Source of the DNA: an uncultured Rubrobacteraceae bacterium
GTDB taxonomy: Bacteria > Actinomycetota > Rubrobacteria > Rubrobacterales > Rubrobacteraceae
Assembly: GCA_902806085.1 (NCBI GenBank)
Contig: CADCVH010000094.1
Coordinates: 62,001-126,000 of the forward strand
Reading direction: 5' to 3'
Length of the DNA: 64,000 nucleotides
Under the pieces are notes generated by a model. It was not told where the DNA came from and ran no database searches. It saw only the letters and a program-made list of their open reading frames with translations. Below, one piece after another: positions 16,087-42,662 of this stretch (position 1 is its first letter; the number at the start of each line of letters is the position of its first letter). Both the position numbers and the translations under genes were made by a program.

Positions 16087-17814
16087 TCACCGGGCCGGGC
16101 CTGTCTCCGCCAACTCGGCTTCGAGTTCGGAGATCTTCTGTCGTACGGCCGCGACGGCCTCTCCGGTGGGCACTATCCGGCTGTCGGTATCGCGGCGGAG
16201 TTTGATCTCTACGCCGCCGTTTCTCAGGGAGCGGGGCGTCAAGGTCAAGCGGATTGGGGCCCCGATCAGGTCCGCGTCCTTGAACTTCGTCCCCAGACGC
16301 TCCGGCCTGTCGTCGTAGAGGACCTCCACACCGGCGGATCGCAACTCTTTGTAGAGTTCCGGGGCGGCCCCGTCGTCCGATGCGACCAGGTGGACGTGGT
16401 AAGGGGCGACGGATATCGGCCAGGCTAGCCCGTCCTCGTCGCGGTGCTCCTCGGCGATGCACGCGAGCAGCCGCCCCACCCCGATCCCGTAAGACCCCAT
16501 CACGACGGGTCGGCGCTCCCCGTCCCGGTCCAGGAAGTACGCGCCGAAGGCCTCGGCGTAACGGGTGCCCAGCTTGAAGATGTTGCCGACCTCGACGCCG
16601 CGCTCGGCCCGCATGGGGGCGCCGCACTGCGGGCAGGCCGAGCCCCGCTCCGCGGCGGCCACGTCCGCGACGACGTCGGCCACAAAGTCCCTGCCGTGGT
16701 TCACGTTGAGGAGGTGGTATCCCTCCTCGTTGGCCCCGGCGACGAGGTTGGGGGAGAACGCTACGGCGTCGTCGGCGACCACGAGCACGCCTTCGAGGCC
16801 GACCGGGGAGCCGTACCCGGGCTCCGCGCCCGCGGCCCGGATCTCCTCCTCGCGCGCCGGCCGCAAGGCGCCCGCCCCCACCGCGTTCGCCAGCTTCGTC
16901 TCGTTCAGGTCCGTGTCCCCCCGCACCACGGCGAAGACGAACCTCTCCTCCTCGCCCAAGGTCGCGACCAGGAAGACCGCCTTTGCCGTCCTGGACCTCG
17001 GTATCCTCAGCAGCCGGGTCAGGTCCTCTATCGTGTCGGTCCCGGGGGTGGCGACCTTCTCGGTGGGCCTCTGCTCCTCCGGGTCCGCGGCCGGCTTGCG
17101 GAACCTGGCCACCTGGCGGTTGGCGGTGTAGCCGCACCCGTCGCAGACGAGGATCGTGTCCTCGCCGACGGGCGAGAGGTACATGAACTCGTGGGCCAGG
17201 CTCCCGCCCATGATGCCGACGTCCGCGCCCACCGCGACGGTGGGCAGCCCGCAGCGGCCGAAGATCCTGTAGTACGCCCGGTGGAGCGTCCGGTACTGTA
17301 GGTCCAGCCCTTTCTCGTCCTTATCGAGGCTGTAGGCGTCCTTCATCGTGAACTCCCTGGCCCGGATCAAGCCGGCCCTCGGCCGCGCGTCGTCGCGGAA
17401 CTTCGTCTGCAACTGGTACACGAGCCGCGGCAATTGCTGGTAGGAGTCGACCTCACCCGCGACCAGCCCCGCGACGACCTCCTCGTGCGTCATCGCCAGC
17501 ACCATCGCCCGACCCCGACGGTCCCGCAGCCGCACCAGCTCCGAACCTACCGCCCCGTACCGCCCGGACCTCTCCCACGCCTCGGCCGGATGGACGACGG
17601 GCATCGACACCTCCTGCCCCCCGCACGCCCCCATCTCCTCCCGCAAGATGTTCGAGACCTTGTCCAGGGACCGCCTCGCCAGGGGCAGGTAGCTGAAGAT
17701 CCCCGCCGCCAACGGCCGCACGAACCCCGCCCGCAACAACAGCCCGTGCCCCGCTACCTCCGTCCCCGAAGGAACCTCCCGCAAAGTCCGCCCGAACAGT
17801 TCGCCCATACGCAT
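16087..17814 (-). CDS. proS: Prolyl-tRNA synthetase
   Basis: 575 residues. A class II synthetase of the bacterial (long) ProRS type: motif 2 region (TKFRDDARPRAGLIRAREFTMKDAYS), an editing (INS) insertion between motifs 2 and 3 with the YTANRQVA start and the GTDTIEDL segment, motif 3 (GSYGIGVGRLLA), and a C-terminal anticodon-binding domain. It charges tRNA-Pro. I start at the ATG at 17814, with GGGGAG 6 bp upstream. The GNAT gene lies 83 bp upstream on the same strand, with a repeat between them; a proline-rich short ORF precedes that unit. Confidence 0.93.
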   Translation of the reverse strand: MRMGELFGRTLREVPSGTEVAGHGLLLRAGFVRPLAAGIFSYLPLARRSLDKVSNILREEMGACGGQEVSMPVVHPAEAWERSGRYGAVGSELVRLRDRRGRAMVLAMTHEEVVAGLVAGEVDSYQQLPRLVYQLQTKFRDDARPRAGLIRAREFTMKDAYSLDKDEKGLDLQYRTLHRAYYRIFGRCGLPTVAVGADVGIMGGSLAHEFMYLSPVGEDTILVCDGCGYTANRQVARFRKPAADPEEQRPTEKVATPGTDTIEDLTRLLRIPRSRTAKAVFLVATLGEEERFVFAVVRGDTDLNETKLANAVGAGALRPAREEEIRAAGAEPGYGSPVGLEGVLVVADDAVAFSPNLVAGANEEGYHLLNVNHGRDFVADVVADVAAAERGSACPQCGAPMRAERGVEVGNIFKLGTRYAEAFGAYFLDRDGERRPVVMGSYGIGVGRLLACIAEEHRDEDGLAWPISVAPYHVHLVASDDGAAPELYKELRSAGVEVLYDDRPERLGTKFKDADLIGAPIRLTLTPRSLRNGGVEIKLRRDTDSRIVPTGEAVAAVRQKISELEAELAETGPAR

Positions 17815-17861
17815 AAAGTCTCCCCTCATCCCTGCCTACCCGCTAGAAGCGGCCGGAAGGC

Positions 17862-17899
17862 CACGTGCCGAAAGGCGCGAAGCGCCGCGCCGAACGCTA
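17862..17899 (-). repeat. Post-stop dispersed repeat, copy C
   Basis: Begins at the GNAT stop codon and reads GGCGCTTCGCGCC followed by TTTCGGCACG on the minus strand. GGCGC-TTC-GCGCC is a perfect small hairpin. Shares a core of about 20 bases with copy B at 5790-5823. Confidence 0.45.
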
Positions 17900-18856
17900 G
17901 GTCGCCAGGTACGGCGTCGTGCCGTAATGGACGAGCCCGGCAGGCGGATCGTTCGGCCCGCCCAACTCCATAAGGAGGCGGTCCTTGCGGCCCCTGAAGC
18001 CAAACTCCCGCAACACGGCGTGGGCGGGACAATCTTCGGGGCCGGGGACGATCACGCGGACGGGCGAGGGCCCGGTCTCCCCGAGGGCCCGGGCGAGAAG
18101 GAGTCGGGCGACGTACGGGGTCGCGGCGACGAAGGGGCCGAGGCGGATCGCATCGCCGCCGGCGCTCCGGATGAGGTAGCCCTTGATCCTGCCGGACGAG
18201 TCCCGCGCCACGAGACCGTTGCCGGGGTGCAGCCGCAGGGTCGCGAACACGAGGTGCGACCGGTCGGCGCCGTAGCCCCAACGGTCCACGCCGTAGAGCT
18301 CGGGCAGCCCTGCGAAGGTCAGCGTACCGACCTCGTACCCGTCGGCCCGCCGGGGTGGACCCGGCGGGCGCGACGCCTCTTCCAGCCGGTACACCGTTCG
18401 CGCCGCGGACGCCCTGAAACCGAGGGACCGGTAGAGCCCTTCGGCTTGCCGCGTGGCGTAGAGACGGACGGTCTTCGCCCCTCGGCTCTTCAGGTAGGCG
18501 ACCGCCCAGGACGAGAGCGCCGCGCCGAGGCCCAAGCCCCGGTACCCGTCGCGAACAGCGAGGTGGCAGAGGACGCCGATGCTCCCCAGCGGCACCGCGC
18601 CGACCATGCCCGCCAGGACGGCGCCGGGGGCTTCGGCCACCGCCCAGCGGGCGTCGCGCACGCCGCGCAGCAGGTCGAACGCCCTGGGGTCGGCCGACCA
18701 GCGCACCACGCTCCTCAGCTCCAGAATACGCCCGAGGTCCGCGTCGTCCATCTGCCGGATGCGGACGCCGGACTCAGGCCAGGCCACGTCCCGCAGCCCG
18801 CTTCGGGCCCCCGTTTCGTCTACTTCCAGGTCTTTTTTCCTGGCAAAGAGCGGCAT
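17897..18856 (-). CDS. GNAT family N-acetyltransferase (two-domain)
   Basis: 319 residues. The N-terminal half is a recognisable GNAT domain with the acetyl-CoA-binding loop VRDGYRGLGLGAAL and the following AVAYLKSRGAKTVRLYAT. The C-terminal half (from about residue 175) resembles the second domain of YitH/acetyltransf-18-like proteins. The acceptor is unknown. Its start ATG at 18856 has GAGGGA upstream. It is the gene before proS in the same direction. A leader of about 170 nt with strong hairpins and a proline-rich short ORF precedes it. Confidence 0.8.
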   Translation of the reverse strand: MPLFARKKDLEVDETGARSGLRDVAWPESGVRIRQMDDADLGRILELRSVVRWSADPRAFDLLRGVRDARWAVAEAPGAVLAGMVGAVPLGSIGVLCHLAVRDGYRGLGLGAALSSWAVAYLKSRGAKTVRLYATRQAEGLYRSLGFRASAARTVYRLEEASRPPGPPRRADGYEVGTLTFAGLPELYGVDRWGYGADRSHLVFATLRLHPGNGLVARDSSGRIKGYLIRSAGGDAIRLGPFVAATPYVARLLLARALGETGPSPVRVIVPGPEDCPAHAVLREFGFRGRKDRLLMELGGPNDPPAGLVHYGTTPYLAT

Positions 18857-18900
18857 TTTTCCCTCGATCTCTGGTGTGTGGGTGGAGACCGTTCCGCGCG

Positions 18901-18990
18901 GAGGACCCGGAAGAACCGGGCGGACGCGGACGCCCCGAGCGCGACCCCTAGAGGGTCGGTCGGGGCAGGGACGGTCGAGGGAACCGTCCC
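18901..18990 (-). promoter_or_regulatory. Structured 5' leader of the GNAT-proS unit
   Basis: Three hairpins lie in tandem. GGGACGGT/ACCGTCCC (18968-18975 with 18983-18990) falls inside the short leader ORF. CGACCC/GGGTCG (18942-18958) can be extended by an outer CCCCGA/TCGGGG pairing. CCCGG/CCGGG with an AAGAA-type loop sits near 18906-18920. No U-tract follows, so any control would be translational or by competing structures. Confidence 0.4.
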
Positions 18991-19034
18991 GAGGGGCGGC
19001 CGATGCCCGGAGATCCTGTGTAGTTCCGTTCCAC
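18948..19034 (-). CDS. Possible proline-rich leader peptide before GNAT-proS
   Basis: 28 codons from a GTG at 19034. Six of the residues are proline, and three of them fall in the last ten (PRPSLPRPTL). The GTG lies 7 bp after a TAGCAT box, so it would be the first codon of a leaderless transcript. The stop codon falls within the hairpin region. In GC-rich sequence, proline codons are common by chance, so this is a candidate only. Confidence 0.35.
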   Translation of the reverse strand: MERNYTGSPGIGRPSGRFPRPSLPRPTL

Positions 19035-19041
19035 GCCCACC

Positions 19042-19070
19042 ATGCTACAGCACCGCCGGCCCCCGGTGAA
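19042..19070 (-). promoter_or_regulatory. Promoter of the GNAT-proS leader
   Basis: TTCACC (19065-19070), a 17-bp spacer and TAGCAT (19042-19047) on the minus strand. It lies in the gap just past the aldo/keto reductase stop codon. Confidence 0.4.
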
Positions 19071-19087
19071 GGGCGCCCCGTTCGGGC

Positions 19088-20053
19088 CTAGCCGCGACGG
19101 ACCACGCCCTCCAAGACGTCGTCTATCTTCTGCAGAGCGTCCGGCGGAAGTTCCGCGCCGGAGGCCGCCGCGTTGTCCTCGACCTGCTCGGGCCTCGACG
19201 CCCCGATGATGGCGCTGCTTACGTTGGGCTGCCGCAGCACCCACGCGAGCGCGAGCTGGGGCATGGTGAGGCCGGCCTCCAGGGCGACGTCGCGCAGCCC
19301 CTCCACCGCCGAGAGGACCTCCTCGTTCATGAGCTCCCGCATGAAACGGTTGGACTCCGGATCTGCGGCGCGGGTGCCCTGCTCGGGTGCCTCGCCGGGG
19401 CGGTACTTGCCGGTCAGAACGCCCTGGGCGAGCGGGGAGAAGACGACTTGGCCGACGCCCTCGCGCTCCGAGAGGGGGACGACCTCGTCCTCTATCTGGC
19501 GTTGGATCATGTTGTAGCGCGGCTGGTTGGAGACGAGCCTGTCCAGGTTCATCTCCTTCGCCAGGCGCAAGGCGTCGCCTATCTGCCCGGCCGTCCACTC
19601 CGAGACGCCGACGTACAGGACCTTCCCCTGCCGCACGAGGTCGTCCAACGTCCGCAGGGTCTCCTCGAGCGGCGTCCCCTCGTCGTAGCGGTGGCACTGG
19701 TAGAGGTCCACGTAATCCGTCCCCAGCCGCCTGAGCGAGGCGTGGCACTGCTCCGTGATGTGCTTGCGCGAGAGCCCCCTGTCGTTCGGCCCCTCGCCCA
19801 TCGGAAAGTAGACCTTCGTCGCCAGGAAGTACGAGTCGCGCTCGAAGCCTTTGAGGGCGTTGCCGACGATCTCCTCCGCCGCGCCGCGCATGTACACGTT
19901 GGCCGTGTCGAAGAAGTTGATGCCGAGATCGTAGGCCCTGTGGACGCAGGCCGTCGCCTGCTCCGCGGCGACGCTGCCGCCGTAAGTCAGCCAGCTTCCC
20001 AGCGAGATCTCGCTGACCTTCACCCCGCTTCCGCCCAACCGCCGGTACTCCAC
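19088..20053 (-). CDS. Aldo/keto reductase family oxidoreductase (voltage-gated K-channel beta-subunit-like)
   Basis: 321 residues from a GTG at 20053 with GGAAGGGG upstream. It has the AKR TIM-barrel motifs: MEYRRLGGSGVKVSEISLG, INFFDTANVY (catalytic Asp and Tyr), the catalytic Lys in LATKV, and the catalytic His in YQCHRYD. The NADP-binding end reads SSAIIGASRPEQVEDN. The pattern fits the KCAB/YghZ-like group that reduces aldehydes with NADPH. The stop codon of the degraded DUF4239 gene directly abuts the GTG. Confidence 0.88.
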   Translation of the reverse strand: MEYRRLGGSGVKVSEISLGSWLTYGGSVAAEQATACVHRAYDLGINFFDTANVYMRGAAEEIVGNALKGFERDSYFLATKVYFPMGEGPNDRGLSRKHITEQCHASLRRLGTDYVDLYQCHRYDEGTPLEETLRTLDDLVRQGKVLYVGVSEWTAGQIGDALRLAKEMNLDRLVSNQPRYNMIQRQIEDEVVPLSEREGVGQVVFSPLAQGVLTGKYRPGEAPEQGTRAADPESNRFMRELMNEEVLSAVEGLRDVALEAGLTMPQLALAWVLRQPNVSSAIIGASRPEQVEDNAAASGAELPPDALQKIDDVLEGVVRRG

Positions 20054-27257: not shown

Positions 27258-27452
27258 AGACTCCGCCCTGTCCCAAACCTGAGAGTATTACCCCGTCGGC
27301 GCCGGCCTAGGCGTTAGCCGGCCGGACTCTCCAGGACGCCCTCGGGTCCGCGGTCCTTCTGCCTGAGAGATTCGGGGTGCCTTCGCAGCCCTTTCACCTT
27401 CGGCGGTCGCTGCGGGGACTCCCCCATCCCCCGCGACTCTCTCCCACGGCCC
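27258..27452 (-). promoter_or_regulatory. Tandem glycine riboswitch
   Basis: Two aptamers on the minus strand. The first (about 27351-27448) shows GGGAGAGAG, then CCGCCGAAGG, then CTCTCAGGCAGAAGGACCG. The second (about 27258-27345) shows GGAGAG, CGCCGACGGGG and CTCTCAGG followed by GGACAGGGCGGA. These are the conserved glycine-aptamer blocks. The gcvPA start lies about 36 bases further. In this class, glycine binding turns on gcv expression. I see no strong intrinsic terminator in the short gap, so control is more likely at translation initiation. Confidence 0.95.
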
Positions 27453-27588
27453 TCATCGGGCTAGGTAAAGTTAGCACAAGTATCGGGGCGTGGCTTGCGA
27501 AGCCGCGTACACGATTCGAGTTTCGGGGAGCTCTCGTACCGCGTCGTCCCCGCCGGCAATCTCGGCGTAAGGCACGGGTTATCCGAAC

Positions 27589-40089: not shown

Positions 40090-42522
40090 CTAGCCCACCA
40101 CGAGGTTGACCAGCCGCCCCGGCACGTAGACGGCCTTGCGGATCTCCTTGCCTTCGACGTGAGGACGAACCTTCTCGCTGGCGAGCGCCTGCCCTTTGGC
40201 GTCCTCTTCCGAGATGCCGGCAGGCACCGTTACCCGGTCGCGCAGTTTGCCGTTGACCTGCACCACGAGCGTGATCTCCTCCTCGGCGATGAGCGCCTCG
40301 TCGTAGCCGGGCCAGGCCTGCTCGTGGACGGAGCCCCCCTCCCCTATATCGGCCCACATCTCCTCGGCGTGGTGCGGCGCGAAGGGCGCGAGGACCGTAA
40401 CGAAGGCCCGCAAAGCCTCCCGCCACTCCTCTTCGGCGACCGCCCCCCTGACGCCGAGCAGGTAGTTTGTGTGCTCCATGAGGGCGGCAATGGAGGTGTT
40501 GAAGCGGAAGGTTTCGAGGTCGCCTGTGACCTTCTTGACGAGCCTGTTGGTCCGCCGCGGAAGCTCCGCCGGGTCGGCCTCGGCCCCCGAGGCCTCGCCG
40601 CCGGCGACGAGCGAGAGGGCGCGGCGCAGAAAGCGGGAGACGCCCCCGATGCCCTGGCTGTCCCACGGCCCGCCCTCGTTCCAGGGGCCGACGAACATGA
40701 GGAAGAGGCGCAGGGCGTCCGAGCCGTAGCGGTCCACGAAGTCCTGCGGGTTGACGACGTTGCCGCGGCTCTTGCTCATGCGGTTGCCGTCGGGGCCGAG
40801 GATGATGCCCTGGTTGAAGAGCCGGCGCATCGGCTCGTCGAACTCCACGAGCCCGAGGTCGCGCATGACCTTCGTGAAAAAGCGGGTGTAGAGCAGGTGC
40901 AACACCGCGTGCTCGATCCCCCCGGTGTACTGGTCGACCGGGAGCCACTTCGCCCCGCGCTCCGGGTCGAAAGGCCCCTCTTCGTAGTGCGGGGAGAGGT
41001 AGCGGTACTGGTACCACGAGGAGTCCATGAACGTGTCCATCGTGTCCGTCTCGCGCGTGGCCGGCCCGCCGCAGACCGGGCACTGCGTGTTGTAGAAGTC
41101 TGGGTCGAGCTTCAGGGGCGACTCGCCGGTGGGCATGAACTCCGCGTCCTCGGGGAGCCGGACGGGGAGGTCTTTCTCAGGAACCGGGACCGCGCCGTGC
41201 TTCGGGCAGTAGATAATGGGGATCGGGGTCCCCCAGTAGCGCTGGCGCGAGATCAACCAGTCGTGGAGGCGGTACGTGACGGCGCGGCGGCCCGTGCCCT
41301 CCCTTTCGAGGTGCTCGATCATGCGCTCTTTGGCCTCTTCCACCCCGAGGCCGTCGAGGAAGCCGCTGTTGATGGCCGGCCCGTCGCCGGTGTAGGCCTT
41401 GCCGTCGAAGTCTTCCGGCGGCCGGACGGTGCGGATTATGGGCAGGTCGTACTTCTCGGCAAACTCCCAGTCGCGCTCGTCCTGGCCCGGCACCGCCATT
41501 ATGGCGCCCGTGCCGTAGCCCACGAGCACGTAGTCGGCGGCGTAGACCGGGATCTTCTTCCCGTTGGCCGGGTTGACCGCGTACGCCCCGGTGAAGACGC
41601 CCGTCTTCTCGCGCGTGACGTCGGTGCGGTCGATCTCGCTCATCCGGGCGGCCTTCTCGACGTAGGCCCGCACCTCGTCCTCCCGCTCGGGCGTCGTTAT
41701 CTTCTCGACGGCCGGGTGCTCCGGGCTCGTCACGAAGAACGTCGCCCCGAAGAGGGTGTCGGGACGGGTCGTGAAGACTTCTATGGGGCCGTAGCCTCCT
41801 ATCTCGAACCTTATCTCGGCGCCCTCGGAGCGGCCGATCCAGTTGCGCTGAAGCGTCTCGACCCGCTCGGGCCACTCTATCTTGGAGAAGTCGAGGAGCT
41901 CGTCGGCGTAGTCCGTGATCTTGAAGAGCCACTGGGGAAGGTTCTTCTTGATAACCTGCGTCCCGCACCGCTCGCACCGGCGGTCGGGGCCTACGACCTG
42001 CTCCCGCGCCAGCGTGGTCTGGTCTTTGGGGCACCAGTCCACCGGCGCCTCTTTGCGATACGCCAGCCCCTTCTCGAAGAACTTGAGGAAGAACCACTGG
42101 TTCCAGCGGTAGTACTCCGGCTTGCACGTGACGACCTCCGAAGAGGTGTCGAACATCGCGCCCATCTGCCGGAGTTGTCCGCGCATGTTCTCTATGTTGG
42201 ACATCGTCCATTTGTACGGATGGATGCCGCGGTTTATGGCGGCGTTTTCCGCCGGCAGCCCGAAGGCGTCGAACCCTATGGGGAAGAAGACCCGGTAGCC
42301 GTTCATCCGCATGAAGCGCGCCCGCGTGTCCGACGGCGTCATCGCGTACCAGTGCCCGACGTGCAGGTCCCCGCTCGGGTACGGAAGCATGGTGAGCGCG
42401 TAGTGCTTGGGCTTGCCCGTGTCCTCGTCCGTTTCGTAGAGGCCGGTCTCGACCCATCGCTCCTGCCAGCGATGCTCCAGGGCGGTCGGGTCGTAGGTTT
42501 TCCTCGGCTTGATCTCGCTCAC
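40090..42522 (-). CDS. leuS: Leucyl-tRNA synthetase
   Basis: 810 residues from a GTG at 42522 with GGAG upstream. A class I synthetase: the HIGH-type motif is PYPSGDLHVGHW, KMSKS is in NRMSKSRGN, and the CP1 editing domain contains the threonine-rich FTTRPDTLFG region. A zinc-type knuckle (CERCG) is in the insertion. It charges tRNA-Leu. A short ORF with a terminal leucine codon lies 58 bp upstream. Confidence 0.96.
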   Translation of the reverse strand: MSEIKPRKTYDPTALEHRWQERWVETGLYETDEDTGKPKHYALTMLPYPSGDLHVGHWYAMTPSDTRARFMRMNGYRVFFPIGFDAFGLPAENAAINRGIHPYKWTMSNIENMRGQLRQMGAMFDTSSEVVTCKPEYYRWNQWFFLKFFEKGLAYRKEAPVDWCPKDQTTLAREQVVGPDRRCERCGTQVIKKNLPQWLFKITDYADELLDFSKIEWPERVETLQRNWIGRSEGAEIRFEIGGYGPIEVFTTRPDTLFGATFFVTSPEHPAVEKITTPEREDEVRAYVEKAARMSEIDRTDVTREKTGVFTGAYAVNPANGKKIPVYAADYVLVGYGTGAIMAVPGQDERDWEFAEKYDLPIIRTVRPPEDFDGKAYTGDGPAINSGFLDGLGVEEAKERMIEHLEREGTGRRAVTYRLHDWLISRQRYWGTPIPIIYCPKHGAVPVPEKDLPVRLPEDAEFMPTGESPLKLDPDFYNTQCPVCGGPATRETDTMDTFMDSSWYQYRYLSPHYEEGPFDPERGAKWLPVDQYTGGIEHAVLHLLYTRFFTKVMRDLGLVEFDEPMRRLFNQGIILGPDGNRMSKSRGNVVNPQDFVDRYGSDALRLFLMFVGPWNEGGPWDSQGIGGVSRFLRRALSLVAGGEASGAEADPAELPRRTNRLVKKVTGDLETFRFNTSIAALMEHTNYLLGVRGAVAEEEWREALRAFVTVLAPFAPHHAEEMWADIGEGGSVHEQAWPGYDEALIAEEEITLVVQVNGKLRDRVTVPAGISEEDAKGQALASEKVRPHVEGKEIRKAVYVPGRLVNLVVG

Positions 42523-42580
42523 GAGCGACTCCTTCTGCGATGGGATTGGTCGGTGCGGGAATAAGAGAAGGCGCGGGCGC

Positions 42581-42628
42581 CTATAGTCGAGGACCGGCGT
42601 TCCAGACCTTGTCGCCCTTCTTGCGCAT
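42581..42628 (-). CDS. Candidate leuS leader peptide (15 aa)
   Basis: An ATG at 42628 opens a 15-codon ORF reading MRKKGDKVWNAGPRL, ending with the rare Leu codon CTA and TAG. It begins 6 bp after a TATATT box, so the mRNA would be leaderless. A GC-rich palindrome (GGCGC-CC-GCGCC) followed by TTCTCTTATT lies just after the stop, and the leuS GTG is 58 bp further. This is the layout of a ribosome-dependent attenuator, but with only one cognate codon. Confidence 0.45.
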   Translation of the reverse strand: MRKKGDKVWNAGPRL

Positions 42629-42634
42629 GCACTT

Positions 42635-42662
42635 AATATAGCACCGGCCGGCTACGCGACAA
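42635..42662 (-). promoter_or_regulatory. leuS promoter
   Basis: TTGTCG (42657-42662), 16-bp spacer, TATATT (42635-42640) on the minus strand. The -35 box lies within the last codons of the DUF92 gene. Confidence 0.6.

Follow-up and report, generated by a model that had tools for sequence, protein, structure and literature searches.

The window analysed here, a 64,000-nucleotide stretch of DNA from an uncultured Rubrobacteraceae bacterium, carries a minus-strand leader flanked on one side by an aldo-keto reductase gene (19088-20053) and on the other by the gene of a GNAT acetyltransferase. Its named relatives, MAGs of Rubrobacteraceae and Rubrobacter as well as Rubrobacter taiwanensis, place the genome in this family. 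The earlier note had described at this position a 28-codon ORF with six Pro codons, its start 7 nt after a TAGCAT box, hairpins overlapping its end and proS as the second gene downstream. All of these are present as described: the ORF encodes the peptide VERNYTGSPGIGRPSGRFPRPSLPRPTL, hairpin 2 (18966-18932) contains its stop codon, a third hairpin lies just downstream of it, and GNAT is followed by proS (Table 1). Judging from the promoter spacing, the transcript may start at or beside the GTG, and the upstream ORF (uORF) would thus be leaderless. Among the 23 in-frame leaders of the set described below, 17 show a CTT equally far from the box, extended to CTTCC in 10 of 23, according to a by-eye count over the upstream stretches.

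Table 1 Features of the leader and of the genes that follow it in the window.
Feature	Position	Strand	Basis or remark
-35-like element TTCACC	19065..19070	-	17 nt ahead of TAGCAT
-10-like element TAGCAT, TG just before	19042..19047	-	7 nt, then GTG at 19034
Putatively leaderless uORF, GTG start, 28 codons, TAG stop (18950-18948), conserved ...PRPSLPRPxL	18948..19034	-	
Hairpin 1, GGGACGG / CCGTCCC, within the uORF	18968..18990	-	Folding and leader alignment
Hairpin-1 loop UUCCCUCGA, 9 nt, anti-Shine-Dalgarno, codons F-P-R	18975..18983	-	Complementarity and covariation with the GNAT Shine-Dalgarno
In-frame bicodon CGA-CCG	18972..18977	-	Without variation among the 28 aligned leaders; identical in 26/26 uORFs that could be read
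Hairpin 2, GCCCCGA / UCGGGGC, uORF stop codon in its upper part	18932..18966	-	Folding and leader alignment
GNAT Shine-Dalgarno region UCGAGGGAA	18859..18867	-	9 bp complementary to the hairpin-1 loop
Two-domain GNAT acetyltransferase (PF00583 + PF18014), the leader's own gene	17897..18856	-	
proS, bacterial-type proline--tRNA ligase (TIGR00409)	16087..17829	-	Start more likely 17814 (MRMGELF)

The folding energy of the window's leader corresponds to z = -2.5 against shuffled sequences, 4 of 200 shuffles being as good. Transcription attenuation via an intrinsic terminator was rejected, because the leader contains no terminator-like site (18857-19087) and because relatives display no consistent T run after hairpin 2; the six bases at this point are GTCCGC in the window, and TTTT occurs in L013, L014 and L036. 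Likewise, a T-box or any other Rfam leader was dismissed, as no Rfam model matches it, whether the gathering threshold is applied or E values up to 10 are allowed.

Two further features were observed elsewhere in the window. A short ORF, MRKKGDKVWNAGPRL followed by a stop codon, is located at 42581-42628 on the minus strand, 6 nt after TATATT, and precedes leuS (open frame 40093-42651; leuS identified by eye). With one Leu codon it is not obviously Leu-rich, and CCT-CGA stands ahead of its last codon as another Pro-Arg ending. A glycine riboswitch aptamer (RF00504, 58.1 bits) lies at 27341-27456, also on the minus strand.

First-order Markov resampling of the leader (n=5000) yields an ORF of 25-45 codons in 23% of cases; the share falls to 0.2% when the start must also lie 5-8 nt downstream of TANNNT, and to 0.06% when at least six Pro codons are required in addition; these thresholds were chosen after the case had been seen, and conservation is the stronger test. 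A separate promoter for proS, which the earlier note had named as one objection to its reading, was not found by a simple promoter scan of the 67-nt gap between GNAT and proS, though this result says little, since the identical scan misses the promoter-like box of the leader itself.

GNAT is present in 30 of 39 Rubrobacteraceae genomes. We read 28 leaders, 27 from those 30 genomes plus L036 from the named collection. L019, L076 and L078 provided no leader (GNAT truncated or upstream leader unreadable), and the set excludes L035, a duplicate of L071, as well as L032-L034 and L037, whose contigs were already represented. Tests on 26 leaders omit L069 (contig end) and L073 (likely homopolymer errors), and the 24-row core alignment with its covariance model additionally omits L017 and L018; in L018 the start codon initially assigned is out of frame, and its Shine-Dalgarno (SD) region was retained. 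The covariance model identified one copy each in 26 of the 39 family genomes, in 26 of 26 cases just ahead of GNAT, and no copy in any of the nine family genomes that lack a GNAT match, some of them (several) being incomplete assemblies. As 23 of the 26 matches are training leaders, the informative results are the three new matches (G012, G043 and G047), the failure to find G011, which carries the diverged leader L017, and the fact that neither a second scored copy in family genomes nor any match in GNAT-less genomes turned up. A sample of the phylum, analysed with stricter filters, gave matches in 19 of 296 genomes, all 19 of them Rubrobacteraceae. The model scored 128 first-look candidates per genome in the family and 16 per genome in the phylum, a fraction of the total, and weak extra copies could be missed. 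Phylogenetic inertia may account for some of the conservation.

The presence of proS does not follow that of the leader. It is found directly after GNAT (within about 1.5 kb) for 7 of the 28 leaders (L001-L005, L012 and L069), a count in which L077 has no downstream sequence. In L069 (G043), proS aligns in two overlapping pieces with 57% identity and may be frameshifted or decaying. Bacterial-type proS was detected in 8 of 25 family genomes searched, the copies of G011 and G018 residing on a contig other than that of GNAT, and a strong match is absent from the remaining 17. The window's genome harbors a second ProRS of the class-I-type TIGR00408 (G000 contig C117, L133:470-1924). Since the leader is kept without proS and is linked to GNAT in all 26 model matches, its partner is the GNAT gene, which is also the first gene downstream, in place of a gene cognate to the uORF codons. 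Hence, of the earlier proposal, a regulatory short ORF ahead of the operon is well supported, whereas attenuation at proline codons cognate to proS does not hold.

To read the uORF across relatives, all leaders were anchored on the GACCG motif, and none had to be discarded for lacking it. A frame-free scan, the sole test of frame because the uORF reading of 26 leaders demanded an in-frame start, located a GTG or ATG 6-7 nt after a TA...T/G box in 23 of 24 usable leaders, the window's included, each time sharing the frame of the Pro-Arg motif. Seven different spacings occur (43, 46, 55, 58, 67, 70 and 76 nt). The scan mis-anchored L009, L013 and L014, which were taken from the uORF reading. L073 is the one exception, with its uORF out of frame, and L074 has an additional candidate start that is out of frame. 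Three homopolymers in or near the core of L073 (G047) are one base shorter than those of close relatives, probably due to long-read sequencing errors. The uORFs comprise 24-37 codons and end near "PRPSLPRP". A conserved short ORF, the first element expected of a translational attenuator, is thus predicted in 23 of the 24 leaders scanned.

Conservation is most pronounced at the nucleotide level. Synonymous differences are scarce in the PRPSLPRP stretch (pS 0.16 vs 0.59 in the middle of the uORF), and across leaders CGACCG, GCCCCG for the most part and GGGG show little or no variation. Outside the structured part, the uORF frame does not have a clearly lower pN/pS than two control frames, being slightly lower in N-terminal codons within the window's own genus only; we therefore do not claim a functional peptide. 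These features could be read as those of a structured RNA recognized by a protein or small molecule, in which the ORF is incidental or serves for RNA protection only. We regard this as improbable: nucleotide constraint does exceed peptide constraint, but the frame is maintained across all seven spacings and the region finds no counterpart in Rfam.

Both hairpins recur in the alignment. Hairpin 1 is paired in 84.5% of cells, with changes on both sides in 2 of 7 pairs, and hairpin 2 in 97.6%, with 4 of 7 pairs invariable. Taken together, the 14 pairs form standard pairs in 91% of cells across 24 leaders, a value that 6 of 500 shuffles reach, and pairing drops to 54-58% when the partner is slid by one column. 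Covariation within the hairpins is modest, as both-side changes occur in 3 of 14 pairs and are equalled by 56 of 500 shuffles. RNAalifold applied to the whole leader alignment recovers only 5 pairs, all in hairpin 2.

The new element at this locus is the loop of hairpin 1, which lies within the uORF and is complementary to the SD of GNAT. With G-U pairs allowed and the best register chosen, an uninterrupted loop-SD duplex of at least 6 bp exists in 24 of 28 leaders, 22 of which reach 7 bp or more, and in 18 of 27 leaders the loop is the best SD partner among about 120-190 windows. Loops fit their own SD better than swapped ones: the native combination was equalled by 15 of 20,000 permutations when duplex energy was compared (26 leaders) and by 4 of 20,000 when the pairing score was used (28 leaders), and one leader per genus (12 groups, L036 separate) gave a median p of 0.008 with a 5-95% range of 0.002-0.068. 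One variable pair can be followed directly. Among the 22 leaders fitting the search pattern it is U-A in 10, U-G in 5, C-G in 7 and C-A in 0, and a quick GNAT tree requires at least four loop and at least two SD changes; L009, L010, L017 and L018 fall outside the pattern. L018 achieves loop-SD pairing via a different sequence, CUUCCGC with GCGGGAG. Fewer than 6 bp were found in the fixed window for 4 of 28 leaders, L010, L016, L017 and L069, the last of which ends at the contig end; L010 (loop C, SD CCGAAGG) is devoid of meaningful pairing and could count as a C-A exception. The second element expected of a translational attenuator, a predicted SD-complementary segment of the leader that overlaps the uORF, is thus present as well.

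With moderate confidence, we interpret the leader as a conserved cis-regulatory translational attenuator of the GNAT gene, and it probably acts as a translation switch for GNAT rather than as a proline switch for proS. In this model, the x-Pro-Arg codons in the loop of hairpin 1 would pair with the GNAT SD, a pairing that the covariation supports, whether as a pseudoknot of the H type or as a simple long-range helix, and translation of GNAT would be blocked. A ribosome slowed or stalled on Pro-Arg-Pro, notably at CGA-CCG, would cover the loop and free the SD, permitting translation of GNAT and, where proS follows, of proS as well. Once a ribosome had moved on to the stop codon, which lies high in hairpin 2, the loop would be released and could cover the SD anew. 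Candidate signals are low levels of charged Pro- or Arg-tRNA, a ribosome-targeting drug or changed leaderless initiation. Folding energies neither support nor decide such a switch. In nested folding, which is unable to hold a pseudoknot, covering the Pro-Arg codons with a ribosome footprint increased the accessibility of the SD by more than 0.2 for only 3 of 26 leaders, and the mean went from 0.16 to 0.24. By a crude energy sum the pseudoknot beats the nested fold in 20 of 26 leaders, a count that falls to 0 of 26 once a standard penalty for pseudoknots is applied.

The codons at the centre of this model overlap the SD complement, with which CCY, the first conserved Pro codon, and the adjacent CGA coincide at the least, and because the loop is complementary to and covaries with the SD, the Pro-Arg codons are partly a by-product of this pairing. 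In the CCY CGA CCG stretch, the third positions of CGA and CCG are fixed although neutral for the peptide, so that constraint on the RNA explains much of its "proline-rich" appearance; CGA and CCG are also retained in L017 and L018, outside the SD pairing detected there. Across 40 ORFs of the window, selected by GC3, 60 of the 1293 Arg codons are CGA, and the CGA-CCG pair occurs 0 times vs 1.6 expected, the latter figures being too small for a conclusion. The draft genome seems to read CGA through tRNA-Arg(ACG) only: ARAGORN revealed no tRNA-Arg(TCG) in 33 loci around 33 of 45 tRNA matches; among the other 12 matches, neighbouring loci covered 3, and the remaining 9 are of class-II size (81-91 nt). 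The same in-frame bicodon is described as inhibitory or stalling in yeast (PMC7829197). We put forward only tentatively, as a rather unlikely proposal, that CGA-CCG is a programmed slow bicodon, served by an inosine tRNA-Arg only, that parks the ribosome over the anti-SD loop; slow pair, hairpin loop and SD mask would then lie in one stretch, and the operon would sense elongation speed rather than one amino acid.

Among the alternatives, the one that survives best assigns no role to particular codons. Translation of the uORF might act as a plain unwinder that keeps hairpin 1 and its loop open, coupling GNAT to leaderless (70S) initiation without codon-specific stalling. The well-conserved position and frame of the uORF start agree with this idea, as does the residue between the two PRP motifs, which is free to vary (L, P, R, S or M at one position), but it leaves the invariant CGA-CCG unexplained, kept even in the two leaders outside detected SD pairing, and we consider it possible though doubtful. 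The structured-RNA reading discussed above ranks behind it. A classical proline-responsive attenuator of proS was rejected as the general function on the grounds of its limited occurrence after the leader and of the second ProRS. The six Pro codons of the window's uORF and a co-oriented proS, plausibly in one operon, would suit such a device, yet relatives without proS retain the leader, the TIGR00408 enzyme is encoded in the same genome, and the first conserved Pro codon falls within the anti-SD, so we think it very unlikely. Hardly more credible is nascent-peptide arrest, in which a Pro/Arg-rich C-terminus would stall the ribosome at termination in the manner of a proline-rich antimicrobial peptide: the uORFs of L012 and L071 end in PRPPRPRPRL and PRPSRPRPRL before the stop, which we take to resemble apidaecin, but final residues vary (SL, SRL, RL, RF, AL, PL, IL, GV, RR) and L018 retains a single PRP.

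If the attenuator reading is true, the leader represents a leaderless uORF that uses its own coding loop as an anti-Shine-Dalgarno, conserved family-wide and without an Rfam family. It would offer a defined test of how leaderless ORFs control a downstream gene, would illustrate that "cognate codons" in leaders can arise merely through complementarity to an SD, and draws attention to a regulated, uncharacterised GNAT enzyme. Tandem GNATs with a variety of functions resemble the predicted model of this protein (mean pLDDT 82); its best solved-structure match is 3ddd, a putative acetyltransferase, with MshD and Eis lower in the list, and all NCBIfam equivalogs that match it do so far below cut-off. 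No literature on the Rubrobacteraceae GNAT leader was found among titles and the beginnings of abstracts, most subscription journals being outside the scope of this search.

Parallels can be drawn with three known systems, as far as the relevant passages of the cited sources describe them. Mycobacterial polycysteine short ORFs are leaderless, are located at the 5' end of operons and are proposed to control expression via elongation speed at particular codons (Canestrari et al. 2020, via PMC9031893; candidates in PMC4633059). They share with the Rubrobacteraceae leader the actinobacterial host and a leaderless uORF heading an operon; as described, they contain runs of Cys codons and partly precede Cys genes, whereas the leader described here has Pro/Arg codons that themselves form the anti-SD, ahead of a gene unrelated to Pro or Arg. 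Relief of SD occlusion by ribosomes stalled in a uORF is documented for toiL of E. coli topAI, where a leader structure occludes the SD (PMC12121999). The proposed leader switch would operate in a comparable way, in another phylum; for toiL, inducing drugs are known according to that account. In its arrangement, the leader can be likened by description to the LEU element before leuA in Actinobacteria, in which Leu codons of a uORF pair with an SD box and a pseudoknot has been proposed (Seliverstov et al. 2005, PMC1262725). The same source cites evidence that Leu codon mutation has no effect and suggests a protein reader. Both elements are actinobacterial, have uORF codons that would pair with an SD and may form a pseudoknot; they differ in that the LEU element, as portrayed there, uses a run of Leu codons and targets leuA.
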